39,525 nucleotides of DNA from Gammaproteobacteria bacterium (lineage in GTDB: Bacteria; Pseudomonadota; Gammaproteobacteria; HK1): the NCBI GenBank assembly GCA_011775625.1, contig JAABYT010000011.1, forward strand, positions 106,524 through 146,048, given 5' to 3'. Made by a program: the position numbers and the translations under genes. The notes beneath the pieces were generated by a model. It had not been told where the DNA came from. It saw nothing but the letters and a program-made list of their open reading frames with translations, and did not search any database. Positions 34,625 through 39,332 of this stretch are shown one piece after another. How positions within the stretch are numbered: the first letter of the stretch is position 1; each line of letters opens with the position of its first letter.

Positions 34625-35113
34625 GTGAATGGAAGGTTGAAGTTCCTGCGCGCAATCCGCCTCGACGACTCCGACACCCAGGTCTACGAGCGTGTCTCGA
34701 AGCCCGGTGAATGGGTGGTGCCGGGTTCCTTCGCCTTTCTCGATCTGGATCCCGCCTCACTCGAAGGCAAGCAGCTGCAGGCGTTCAAGAGCGGTTTTCT
34801 CGGCACCGAGAGCTTCGGCTGGACCACGCTCGTCGAGATTGCCGAGATCGACGAAGACGAGTACCAACAGGTCATCGACCGCCTGGCTGCGCACTTCATG
34901 GAGCACTACGGCGCGCCGCACATCGCCGCCGCGCTTCCGGCCGCCGGCGAGGAAGCGCACTACGCCGCCACGATCTGCGAGTATCCGCTCGACACGCTGC
35001 TCGCCATCGAGCGCGAATTCGGAGACGAGGGCATTGTCGAGAGCCTCAAGGTCGTGAGGCCCAACGCCGCCAATCACGGCGACGTCAAGCTTTGGGCGAT
35101 CGAAGAGGACTGA
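34625..35113 (+). CDS. DUF6505-like protein
   Basis: 162 residues from a GTG at 34625, six bases after the gcdH stop; an alternative TTG four codons later (34637) would give LKFLRAIRLDDSD as the start, the usual opening of this family as I remember it. GEWVVPGSFAFLDLD and FKSGFLGTESFGWTTLVEI are also consistent with DUF6505. The protein is acidic, soluble and without a signal peptide or a known catalytic motif. Its position next to gcdH suggests co-transcription. The family call is from memory and should be treated as moderate. Confidence 0.65.
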   Translation: MNGRLKFLRAIRLDDSDTQVYERVSKPGEWVVPGSFAFLDLDPASLEGKQLQAFKSGFLGTESFGWTTLVEIAEIDEDEYQQVIDRLAAHFMEHYGAPHIAAALPAAGEEAHYAATICEYPLDTLLAIEREFGDEGIVESLKVVRPNAANHGDVKLWAIEED

Positions 35114-35122
35114 GATCGGCCG

Positions 35123-37084
35123 CTACTGCACGCGCGTCAGATTTCCGAAAGCCTCGCCTACCCGAATCAACCGCAGACATTGGCTTGCGCGCAGGGTGGT
35201 GTTGTCGCCGCTGGTGCGCTCGTACATGAGATTCGTCGGATCGGGATCGTGCTCGCCGCTGTCGGCGAGCGAATGATAGAGCTCGTGGGCGAGGCCGATA
35301 TCGATATCCTGTATGGCCGCCGTGATCCAGACGGTATCGGCCAGCGCGCGCCGTTTGCGACTGTTCGAACGCCCGAGGGCGAGCGCCTCGAAGGGTAGAT
35401 CCTGCAGCGTGCCGGCGACGAAGAAGACCGCCGGGCGCGCCGGGTCGAGCCGCGATACCAGCTCCGTGGACCAGTCGTAACGAAAAATCTTCACGCGCTC
35501 GGGTCCTTCCACCAGGCGCACCGTGACCTCGGGAACTGCGATGCCGCACTGGGCGAGAACTCGCGCCGCCTTCGCGGTGGCCTCGCGCACCACGTCGAGC
35601 TGCCAGCCGGCGTCCTCGACGATGACCACCGTGGGGCGCAGCGCGTGAGTGCTGCCCGACGGCGCGGCGTCGGTGCCGAGATCCTCCGGCATCCAGGTGA
35701 AACGACTGGTCTCGACAATCTGGCGGGGCATGGCGGCGCAGCCACCGCGCTCGCGGGCGCCGGGGTCGGGCAGAAAGCCGCCGACGCTGTAGGCGGCCTT
35801 TTCCGCGTCCGGCGCCTCGGCGAGCGCGAGAATCGCGTCCTTAAGCTCTGCGGCGCGCCACTGCGGCTGCGCCTGCAGCAGGCACGCGGCCAGCGCCGAG
35901 ACCCGTGCCGCCGCGTAGCTGGAACCGGATACGACCCGGGGCAAGCCGTAGAAATCCGTGACCAGCATGCCCTCGGCGGGCACCAGCAGATCGACCGACG
36001 TCCGGCCCCAGTTCGAGCCCGGTGCCGGCCGCCCCTGCGCATCGGCCGAGCTGACCACCAGCATGTTCTCGAGCATGAGCGAGGCCGGATAGACCGGCTG
36101 GCTGTCGATATCGCGCCCGTTGTTGCCGGCGGATACGACGAACAGCATGTCCGGATGGGCAGCGGCGGCCTGCTCGAATATCTGCCACTCCTCCACCCGG
36201 TTGCCGCCGAGCGACAGGTTGAGGACCGCCACGCCGGCGCTCGCGGCATCCTCGACGAGCTCGGCCATGCGCGTCATGTCGGGGCGCGGGTAACGGTACG
36301 CAACCAGCGCGGCACCCGGCGCCTCGCGCAGCAGCAGGCTGGCGGTCTGGGTGCCGTGGCGCTGGGGAAAGAACGCCGAGCGCGCGGGATTGGCATCGAA
36401 CGGCCGCCGATCCAGATCCCAGAAGTCGAAGCCGACGATGGCGCCGCCGCTGTCGCGGGCGAGCCGGTCGGCGATGCCCGGCAGCAGGTAGTTGACGCCG
36501 GCATCCACCAGGGCGACGCGCACCGCCGGCGTGTCCGTTGCCCCCCCGGCGGCCTCGGCCGGCTCCGGCACGGGCGGGTTCAGCGCCTCCCGCGTCTGCA
36601 CGTCGTCGAGCGTGGCGCTGAGCAGCTCCAGGTACTCGGCCTTGCCACCGGCATCGTAGACGAGGCGGCGCGCCGTCTGCACCCGACACTGGCCGTCGGC
36701 GACGATCAGCAGATGCGGTTGCAGAGCCTCGCCCGCGCCGGCCCCCGGCGCCCAGTACTCGCCGGTGATGCGGCGAAAGCCTTCGCCGGGCTCGAAGGTC
36801 TGCAGGCGCATCTGGTCGCCGCTGTCGATGACCGAGAATTGCCGACGAACGCCGACCTCCCGGCCACGCACCACCAGCGGTGATTTCTCCAGCAGCGTGG
36901 CGCCCGGTATCGCCATCTCCTCGCCGTCGGCGTGCACTCCCTCGCCGCCGCACACGGCGTTCACGGCCGCCAGCAGGCGCGCCTCCGGCGTTGCCGCGAG
37001 CGGCGCCTGCTGCGCCAGCGCGGGCAGCGCACACAGAGTCAGGACGGCGGTCGCGATCGCGACACGACACTCATTTATATGCAT
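35123..37084 (-). CDS. Secreted S8 subtilase with C-terminal zincin-like HExxH region
   Basis: 653 residues from the ATG at 37084, which gives a signal peptide (1-25, ending ALAQ). Residues 26-185 form a prodomain-like region. The subtilase domain (about 186-435) has the full triad: Asp in ALVDAGVNY (D194), His in QRHGTQTAS (H243), Ser in SGSSYAAARV (S389), with the oxyanion Asn in SAGNNG (N321). After about residue 480 a second region ends in AHELYHSLADSGEH: HExxH at 600-604 with a third His at 612, then a possible Met-turn NLMY (M620). That is a metallopeptidase-like site on the same chain. It should act in the periplasm or outside; targets are unknown. It diverges from the ligase-like gene. 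Confidence 0.85.
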   Translation of the reverse strand: MHINECRVAIATAVLTLCALPALAQQAPLAATPEARLLAAVNAVCGGEGVHADGEEMAIPGATLLEKSPLVVRGREVGVRRQFSVIDSGDQMRLQTFEPGEGFRRITGEYWAPGAGAGEALQPHLLIVADGQCRVQTARRLVYDAGGKAEYLELLSATLDDVQTREALNPPVPEPAEAAGGATDTPAVRVALVDAGVNYLLPGIADRLARDSGGAIVGFDFWDLDRRPFDANPARSAFFPQRHGTQTASLLLREAPGAALVAYRYPRPDMTRMAELVEDAASAGVAVLNLSLGGNRVEEWQIFEQAAAAHPDMLFVVSAGNNGRDIDSQPVYPASLMLENMLVVSSADAQGRPAPGSNWGRTSVDLLVPAEGMLVTDFYGLPRVVSGSSYAAARVSALAACLLQAQPQWRAAELKDAILALAEAPDAEKAAYSVGGFLPDPGARERGGCAAMPRQIVETSRFTWMPEDLGTDAAPSGSTHALRPTVVIVEDAGWQLDVVREATAKAARVLAQCGIAVPEVTVRLVEGPERVKIFRYDWSTELVSRLDPARPAVFFVAGTLQDLPFEALALGRSNSRKRRALADTVWITAAIQDIDIGLAHELYHSLADSGEHDPDPTNLMYERTSGDNTTLRASQCLRLIRVGEAFGNLTRVQ

Positions 37085-37125: not shown

Positions 37126-37159
37126 TATAGTTTACCGTCACCGGGATGGTTATAGTTAT
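37126..37159. promoter_or_regulatory. Direct repeats in the subtilase/ligase-like divergent region
   Basis: TATAGTTTA (37126-37134) and TATAGTTAT (37151-37159) share TATAGTT and start 25 bases apart in the otherwise GC-rich 121-base intergenic region between two divergent genes. They could be regulator sites or overlapping -10 elements. Confidence 0.35.
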
Positions 37160-37205
37160 CGACCGGCCTCGAAGCAGCCAACCACGCCTGGTGCAAGTCC
37201 CTCAC

Positions 37206-37973
37206 GTGAACGATTCACCGCAACTCCCGCCCCACTACGAGCTGGTTCAGCTTTACCACGTGGACGACGTGATGCGCGAGGCCGCGCGGCGCGCCCGCAA
37301 CGGTGCCGGCGAGGGCACGCTCGTCTGGGCGGTCGAGCAGGGCGACGCGCACACCACCAGCGACAAGCGCTGGTACTCGCCGCCGGGCAACCTTCACTGC
37401 GCGCTCCTTCTGCGCCCGGATTATTCCAACGCACGATGCGGACAGCTGGCCTACGTCGCCGCACTGAGCGTGGGCAGCGCGCTCGCAGAGCTTCTGCTGC
37501 CCATGACGGGACTGCGCTACAGGTGGCCGTCGAAGCTCTACATCAACGATTTGCGCGCCGGCCAGATCATGCTGGCGGCGTCGGACGGTCACAGCGACCC
37601 CTACGAGTGGCTTGCGCTGGGCGTGATGGTCAACGTCGCCGAGCATCCGCCCAATCCCGAGCCTGAGGAGTTCGTGAGCGTGCACGCGAGCGGCGCGACC
37701 GATGTGACGGTGGCGCAGGTGCTGGAGGGCTTCGCCCGATACTTCCTGCACTGGATCAACCGCTGGGCCGAGAACGGTTTCGGACCCATCGCCCACCAGT
37801 GGCAGCTGCGCGCCGACGGTGTCGGCGAGGAGATGACGGTCCGCGTCGGTGAGCAAACCCATCGCGGCACCTTCGTCGAGGTGGACGAAGAAGGTAGACT
37901 GGTGCTCCTGGAGTCCGGTCAGATCGAGCAGCGCATCAGTGTCAATGCCTTCTTTGCCCTCGACGGCGAGTGA
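37206..37973 (+). CDS. Biotin/lipoate protein ligase-like protein lacking the adenylation motif
   Basis: 255 residues from a GTG at 37206; the in-frame ATG at 37146 would add 20 residues and run through the intergenic repeats, so the GTG is preferred, though neither has a clear Shine-Dalgarno. The fold follows biotin protein ligase: GTLVWAVEQGD, then RWYSPPGNLHCALLLRPD, QLAYVAALSVGSAL, and RWPSKLYINDLRAGQIMLAA. In active ligases the loop before the Trp is GRGRxGRxW and the later motif is KWPNDxxxxxxK; here they read GDAHTTSDKRW (46-56) and RWPSKLYIND (106-115), so key Arg, Lys and Asp residues are changed. The C-terminal 100 residues may be a DUF4444-type domain. It may bind rather than activate a ligand. 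Confidence 0.65.
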   Translation: MNDSPQLPPHYELVQLYHVDDVMREAARRARNGAGEGTLVWAVEQGDAHTTSDKRWYSPPGNLHCALLLRPDYSNARCGQLAYVAALSVGSALAELLLPMTGLRYRWPSKLYINDLRAGQIMLAASDGHSDPYEWLALGVMVNVAEHPPNPEPEEFVSVHASGATDVTVAQVLEGFARYFLHWINRWAENGFGPIAHQWQLRADGVGEEMTVRVGEQTHRGTFVEVDEEGRLVLLESGQIEQRISVNAFFALDGE

Positions 37974-38344
37974 GCACACGAGACACCCGAGCGCGCGCCC
38001 TGACCCGAAGACGAGCTGCCGTGTACGGAGACCGACAGGAACAAGCCCCGGGCGTGTACGCCATCGACGAGCACGGTGAGCTGACCCTGGTGCACGAGTA
38101 TCAGGACGGCGATTACTCCCTGGAGGATCTGCTGGAAGAGTTTGGCTTCGGGCGTGCCGCGGGCGAATCCGAGAACGGCGATGCGATCATCGCGCTCAAC
38201 GCCGAGGAGATTCGCCAGCTCAAGGTCAACGCCGACGCCTACAGCTTCGACTACGACGAGGGATTCATCGAGATGTGCCTCGACATCGAACGATTCGCCA
38301 CGGCGGCGAGCGAGGAATCCCTGCGCCTGGTCTCACTGGACTGA
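37970..38344 (+). CDS. Acidic protein of unknown function coupled to the ligase-like gene
   Basis: 124 residues from a GTG that overlaps the upstream stop as GTGA, so translation is probably coupled. After a basic N-terminus (about 1-20, which may not be part of the true protein) the chain is strongly acidic: GVYAIDEHGELTLVHEYQDG, DYSLEDLLEEFGFG and YSFDYDEGFIEMCLDIERFA. There is no signal peptide, membrane segment or metal motif. I do not recognise the family. It probably works with the ligase-like protein upstream. Confidence 0.65.
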   Translation: MSTRDTRARALTRRRAAVYGDRQEQAPGVYAIDEHGELTLVHEYQDGDYSLEDLLEEFGFGRAAGESENGDAIIALNAEEIRQLKVNADAYSFDYDEGFIEMCLDIERFATAASEESLRLVSLD

Positions 38345-38354
38345 TTGCCGGGCC

Positions 38355-39332
38355 GTGGCTCTGCTCCGGCATCTGGTATACCTGCTGATGCTGCCTTTGC
38401 CGGCGCTTGCGCAGCCGACGGCGCCAGCTCCCGGCGAGCGCGTCGCCGACCAGGCCCTGCTGATGGCCGCCGAGGCCGGGCGCGTGGAGCTGGTCGAGTT
38501 CGCGCTCGACAACGGTGCCGACATCGAGGCCCGGGATCGACGCAGGCGCGGGGGCACGCCGCTGCACCTGGCCATCGAGAACGGTCACTACCCCGTCGTT
38601 CGCGCGCTGCTCGCACGCGGCGCGGACGCCGACGCCGCGAACGCGAGCGGACACACGCCCCTCATGGTGGCCGCAGACGCGCGCGACGACCCGCTCATGG
38701 GCGTCGAGCTCATCGGTGCCGGCGCAGCAGTCAATGCGGCCGCGGCCGACGGCACCACGGCGCTGATGGCCGCGGCGGGCCGCGGTCACGAGAACTTCGT
38801 CGGGCTGCTGCTGCTGAACAAGGCCGACCCGGCCGCGGTCGACGCCGCCGGGCGCGACGCGCTGCTGCTCGCCGCCGAGGACGGCTCGCTCGCCTCGGTG
38901 GCCGCGCTGGTCGACGCCGGGGCGAGTCCGAATCGACGCGCGCTGAACGGCGAGACGCCTCTCGGGCGCGCGGTCATCGGTGCCCATGCGGGCATCGCTG
39001 CGCGGCTCCTGGCGGCCGGCGCCGACGTGAATGCACCCGTGGCCAACGGCCAGACGCCGCTCATCATTGCCGTGCGCACGGGCGATACCGCCACCGTGGA
39101 CGTGCTCCTCGGCGCGGGTGCGGACGTGAATCGACGCGAGCTCGGCAACGGCAACACGGCGCTCATGTACGCCGCCAACAGCGGCTTCGCGGATCTGGTG
39201 GAACGGCTTCTGGAAAACGGCGCCGATGTGCGGGCGCAGGCCGAGGACGGCTGGACGGCGATTCAGGCCGCGGAGATGGTGGGTGAGACGGGCATCGCCG
39301 AGCGCCTGCGGGCTGCGGCCCGCGGCGGCTGA
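38355..39332 (+). CDS. Exported ankyrin-repeat protein
   Basis: 325 residues from a GTG at 38355, eleven bases after the previous stop. The start gives a Sec signal peptide (MALLRHLVYLLMLPLPALAQ), so the protein is periplasmic. About eight ankyrin repeats follow, each with a G-x-TPLxxA or G-x-TALMxA opening and a LLxxGADVN end: examples are GGTPLHLAIENGHYPVVRAL, GTTALMAAAGRGHENFVGLL and GNTALMYAANSGFADLVERL. Ankyrin arrays bind other proteins; periplasmic members in proteobacteria are sometimes tied to oxidative stress or contact-dependent processes. No catalase or toxin gene is beside it. It converges on the partial gene at the right edge. Confidence 0.85.
   Translation: MALLRHLVYLLMLPLPALAQPTAPAPGERVADQALLMAAEAGRVELVEFALDNGADIEARDRRRRGGTPLHLAIENGHYPVVRALLARGADADAANASGHTPLMVAADARDDPLMGVELIGAGAAVNAAAADGTTALMAAAGRGHENFVGLLLLNKADPAAVDAAGRDALLLAAEDGSLASVAALVDAGASPNRRALNGETPLGRAVIGAHAGIAARLLAAGADVNAPVANGQTPLIIAVRTGDTATVDVLLGAGADVNRRELGNGNTALMYAANSGFADLVERLLENGADVRAQAEDGWTAIQAAEMVGETGIAERLRAAARGG

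Follow-up and report, generated by a model that had tools for sequence, protein, structure and literature searches.

A gammaproteobacterial subtilase joined to a domain of a probable new metzincin family whose zinc motif is lengthened

We analyzed a window from an uncultured gammaproteobacterium – the whole stretch of DNA under study, 39,525 nucleotides – in which a single gene encodes a chain with the residues of both a serine protease and a zinc protease (Table 1). The gene is present in one copy in the draft host genome, and the plus strand carries stops in the reading frame of 35123-37084. Its neighbours in the window encode an acyl-CoA dehydrogenase, a DUF6505 protein and a biotin/lipoate ligase: 9 bases lie between the 3' end of the protease gene and the DUF6505 gene, which is convergent, and 61 bases between its 5' end and the divergent ligase gene. 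Two more genomes (G001 and G007) retain DUF6505 as the convergent neighbour, and the three g2 genomes with the protease gave no DUF6505 match. Neighbourhood clustering across the loci that encode the fused protein recovered no conserved partner gene, merely close-relative synteny and antisense shadows of GC-rich genes, and the adjoining genes give no pointer to the exact function of the protease in the organism. A plus-strand open frame of 412 codons in the same GC-rich DNA (35645-36883) is most likely no gene in its own right but an antisense shadow that the protease gene casts.

Table 1. Features of the protease locus and of the chain that it encodes
Feature	Positions in window	Strand	Basis or remark
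Protease gene	35123..37084	-	ATG at 37084, stop 35123-35125; 653 aa
DUF6505 gene	34625-35113	opposite to protease gene	
Biotin/lipoate ligase gene	37146-37973	opposite to protease gene	
Ankyrin-repeat protein	38142-39332		adjoins protease locus; PF12796, E=3e-48
Signal-peptide-like N-terminus, residues 1-26 (VAIATAVLTLCALPALA-QQA)	37007..37084	-	sequence; AlphaFold2 helix 3-23
N-domain, residues 27-187	36524..37006	-	variable, mostly beta
S8 subtilase domain, residues 188-440	35765..36523	-	D194, H243, N321, S389; PF00082
Linker, residues 441-484	35633..35764	-	poorly conserved, length varies; candidate processing region
Predicted metzincin-fold domain (C-domain), residues 485-653	35126..35632	-	AlphaFold2, Foldseek, conservation
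Putative zinc motif H600-E601-x-x-H604-x7-H612 and Met-turn N618-L619-M620, to E622	35219..35287	-	conservation
C-domain model, first part			strand 485-489, backing helix 496-511, strand 520-526, helix 536-546
C-domain model, middle part			strands 552-555, 567-570 and 584-587; active-site helix 594-607
C-domain model, last part			loop with H612, NLM, C-terminal helix 633-645

Pfam covers only the S8 part of this chain, and the putative zinc protease domain is previously unnamed. PF00082 matches residues 188-423 (E=1.2e-23, 84.2 bits against a cut-off of 21.8), and neither the N-terminal 185 nor the C-terminal 174 residues have a Pfam match, even at E=10; among 42 fused relatives, S8 was likewise the sole family that Pfam recognised. 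A full-length AlphaFold2 model reached a pLDDT of 92.4 and a pTM of 0.88, with lower-confidence stretches in the signal peptide region and at residues 41-60, 171-190, 441-450 and 471-480. The N-domain retains Cys45 and Cys133 in most relatives and has a conserved LNPPVP right ahead of the linker. Several Granulosicoccus relatives do not have this domain, which is therefore not essential. Apart from the signal peptide, no part of the chain is less conserved than linker 441-484 (mean majority 0.25, versus 0.68 for S8).

Within the S8 domain we located D194 (VDAGV), H243 (RHGTQ), N321 (SAGNN) and S389 (GSSYAA) – the triad and oxyanion residue exactly as the original prediction had named them, with Asp, His and Ser in S8 order. 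Foldseek matched this part of the model to deseasin MCP-01 (3.9e-18) and subtilisins, consistent with a subtilisin fold. The domain thus has the complete triad, oxyanion Asn and fold in common with the S8 family, its nearest members by score being deseasin MCP-01, mycosin and PatA. Unlike known S8 proteases, this subfamily carries RYPRPDM and GSSYA signatures, is always joined to a metallo domain in our sample, and is preceded by a mostly beta N-domain that matches no Pfam family. Sub-threshold NCBIfam matches of the S8 domain were to T7SS mycosin (3e-18), PatA (1e-11) and QhpE (1e-9). That the highest scores are against these three processing proteases would fit a dedicated maturation protease for one specific secreted substrate. 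We consider this unlikely, however: all three scores fall far under the curated cut-offs (66 bits against 278.75 for the mycosin family TIGR03921), and no conserved substrate-like neighbour appears across the fused loci beyond close-relative synteny.

The second set of residues lies about 200 residues further on, where the original prediction had noted HELYH with a His eight residues later. The sequence bears this out: H600-E601-L-Y-H604 is followed by H612, with x(7) between H604 and H612, and by NLMY at 618-621. Among 20,000 shuffles of the protein, HExxH arose in 0.6%, HExxHx7H in 0.005%, and HExxH followed by the His and [NSC]xM in none. To examine conservation we turned to relatives. A contig scan with the single full-length protein as query found none; a scan of genomes with a C-domain alignment yielded 101, and we retained 80 of these. 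Every one of the 80 has HExxH-x7-H, in the form HE(L/M)xHx7H, and the motif is thus not a product of chance. HEL[FY]H was itself part of one of the two search patterns, so this conservation is partly built in for the matches of that pattern; the fair test comprises the 43 loci found solely through the pattern without HExxH, and 43 of 43 retain the motif. The poor conservation of HExxH that the original prediction had set against itself was accordingly not seen.

Conservation extends across both active sites. Forty-two of the 80 relatives are fused to the same S8 subfamily, one of them cut by a contig end; in the 41 complete homologues and the window protein, D194, H243, N321 and S389 are invariant, as are H600, E601, H604 and H612, so that, judged by alignment, each of the two sets is complete and without variation. 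Asn618 and Met620 have one exception each among the fused rows (Met is kept in 41 of 42). Further invariant positions in the C-domain include W494, C513, G571, N574, W586 and G610, and C513 likely forms a disulfide with C636. The reading that HExxH arose by chance, or that the fusion is an artefact of annotation or assembly, draws on the presence of one copy in one draft genome, but is refuted by this conservation and can practically be dismissed: the same architecture occurs on 42 contigs from many genomes, including the chromosome-titled records L029 and L030, and the probability of the motif is 5e-5 even within a single sequence.

To place the C-domain in a clan, we examined its predicted structure. 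An AlphaFold2 model built with the 80 sequences had a pLDDT of 97.0 and a pTM of 0.93, and it contains the metzincin core: a 4-5 stranded sheet, a backing helix and a C-terminal helix. The active-site helix holds H600, E601 and H604, and N618-L619-M620 sits at the place expected of the Met-turn that the original prediction had suggested for NLMY, an assignment made by sequence and position only. The order of helices and strands agrees with that described for metzincins (PMC12237041, PMC11674741). Consistent with this, the best 50 Foldseek matches in the PDB were all metzincins (best E 1.9e-6, highest TM 0.59), among them snake-venom metalloproteinases, ADAM33, ADAMTS, fragilysin and karilysin, though the matches are distant (TM 0.5-0.6, rmsd 4-6 Å). 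Sequence profiles gave less. The top PDB match of the C-domain profile, a snake-venom metalloproteinase, was not significant (E=0.046), and hhalign against bacterial families returned probabilities of 18% for reprolysin and 7% for matrixin, the latter alignment placing HExxH on HExxH, third His on third His through a two-residue gap, and Met on Met. The window's domain has no Pfam or NCBIfam match, and thus does not fall within the M10 matrixin or M12B reprolysin profiles. As the profile similarity is weak, the metzincin relation rests on the fold, which is established at the level of structure prediction.

Among the 80 members, Pfam and NCBIfam gave scattered weak matches to HExxH families (M13, M48, HtpX). 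These were rejected because the window's domain has none of them and no gluzincin is among the listed fold matches.

The C-domain resembles the metzincin clan (adamalysins/ADAM, fragilysin, and matrixins such as karilysin) in its Foldseek-assigned fold, HExxH and third His, and in the succession of sheet strands, backing helix, active-site helix, Met-turn and C-terminal helix. It differs in the spacing of the motif, as the original prediction had pointed out for H-x(3)-H-x(7)-H. The metzincin consensus is HExxHxxG/NxxH/D (PMC12237041, PMC11674741), with Gly or Asn three residues before the third ligand, whereas 80 of 80 relatives have HExxHxxxxxGxH: the Gly stands at +10 from the first His rather than +7, and the third His at +12 rather than +10. 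In the model the active-site helix stops at residue 607, where the classical Gly would stand, and the loop that then reaches H612 is two residues longer. The lengthened spacing is a real departure and the family's own signature, not a mis-alignment. In matrixins the third His and the Met are spaced by 8, and the C-domain has the same spacing.

Igalysins (MEROPS M64; IgAse, PMC12237041) and CLCA provide a precedent for metzincins with a lengthened zinc motif. The igalysin motif HExxHxxxGxxD has one extra residue and an active-site helix half a turn longer (PMC12237041). The C-domain has two extra residues, a Gly at +10 and a His as putative third ligand where igalysins have Asp, and is without their 53-residue connecting segment ahead of the Met-turn; its motif is thus not that of M64. 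No curated family matches it, and given the predicted fold the C-domain probably represents a new metzincin family in which the loop to the third ligand is lengthened. The definition of metzincins relies on a short zinc motif. If a metzincin fold does accommodate a third ligand moved by two residues, this would call for a wider clan search pattern and give a gauge of the tolerance of the loop.

The same departure from the clan consensus, together with the weak profile similarity to known families, might instead indicate a metzincin-derived module that is not an enzyme – a substrate-binding or inhibitory domain with structural zinc – so that cutting is done by the subtilase alone. This seems quite improbable, given that the catalytic Glu and three His are invariant in 80 of 80 relatives, that a structural zinc site would have no need of E601, and that the domain also occurs as short stand-alone proteins with no such subtilase in the flanks. 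In an active C-domain, zinc would be bound by two His of the active-site helix, H600 and H604, and by H612 as third ligand, which follows a loop exceeding that of known metzincins by two residues; E601 would act as general base, and M620 would form the Met-turn floor under the site. On whether the three His could meet at one zinc, the check that the original prediction had proposed, the fold match and the conservation bear indirectly. We infer that the S8 and metzincin units are both active. The fusion of a serine protease to a metalloprotease-like domain that the original prediction described is well supported by the invariance of both sites in fused homologues and by the metzincin fold match; the gene product is probably a secreted or periplasmic protein with two protease classes on one chain.

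We next asked how the two domains are distributed. Five full-length relatives (47-69% identity) occur within the same taxonomic family, and one genome of the class carries the C-domain alone. On the evidence of their reading frames and of an S8 profile made from the fused relatives, the remaining 38 of the 80 are stand-alone. Fused relatives are gammaproteobacterial, by record title where the class is named; stand-alone relatives are mostly betaproteobacterial, though two loci within their clade are labelled gammaproteobacterial. Four stand-alone loci titled as a Bordetella parapertussis MAG (L038, L047, L068 and L076) branch among environmental betaproteobacteria, and their labels look like mis-assigned metagenome bins. 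In a C-domain tree a single branch separates fused from stand-alone members (SH-aLRT 96), the labels requiring one change versus 26.5 expected with shuffled labels; such a split may reflect gain or loss of the fusion alike. Stored flanks of up to 6 kb around the stand-alone members contained no subtilase of this kind, though the rest of the genome may hold one. The metallo domain therefore seems to need no such partner in general.

In an even sample of the class comprising 369 genomes, the S8 subfamily (E<=1e-40, which leaves out weaker, unrelated subtilases) was present in eight. All eight also carry the C-domain, with coinciding open frames: no genome in the sample has the S8 subfamily without the metallo domain. 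The only other strong C-domain matches were short stand-alone frames in two genomes (G030 and G103). From these sequence comparisons the fusion appears to be old and stable, with the metallo domain existing alone as well, and the pairing looks real and functional. Searches of open-licence literature found nothing on this fusion, or on the spacing written as a pattern. What we describe is a finding about protease families, not a system of a new kind.

Taken broadly, we consider it probable that the chain carries two protease activities. After secretion, the N-domain might aid folding as a prodomain or chaperone and the subtilase might mature itself; it could then cut the chain at its flexible linkers, near residues 171-190 and 441-480, freeing or activating the metzincin, after which both proteases would cut substrates with different specificities. 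The linkers flanking S8 combine low conservation with lower model confidence and are compatible with self-processing or two-step cleavage. Activation of the metzincin in cis by the S8 domain is a possibility that we put forward tentatively. Doubtful as a whole is the fuller proposal of a self-activating zymogen, in which a new metzincin family (HExxHx5GxH), alone in betaproteobacteria and in gammaproteobacteria tied permanently to a subtilase of its own, is activated in cis by that subtilase. A reading about as likely as cis-processing, and itself somewhat short of an even chance, is that two active, independent domains form a two-specificity scavenging exoprotease without processing between them. 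Processing is not favoured by the joint model, whose high confidence (pTM 0.88) points to a compact protein that might remain in one piece, and the linker varies in length as a simple tether would; the strict pairing of this S8 subfamily with the metallo domain hints at something beyond tethering, though the independent reading could accommodate it. A serine/metallo fusion that is stable and has a stand-alone sister lineage offers a natural system for studying whether one protease domain activates another in cis.

At the ankyrin-repeat gene that adjoins the protease locus, we observed that the frame overlaps the preceding ORF and that a signal-peptide-like stretch sits well inside it – its true start therefore likely lies further in.
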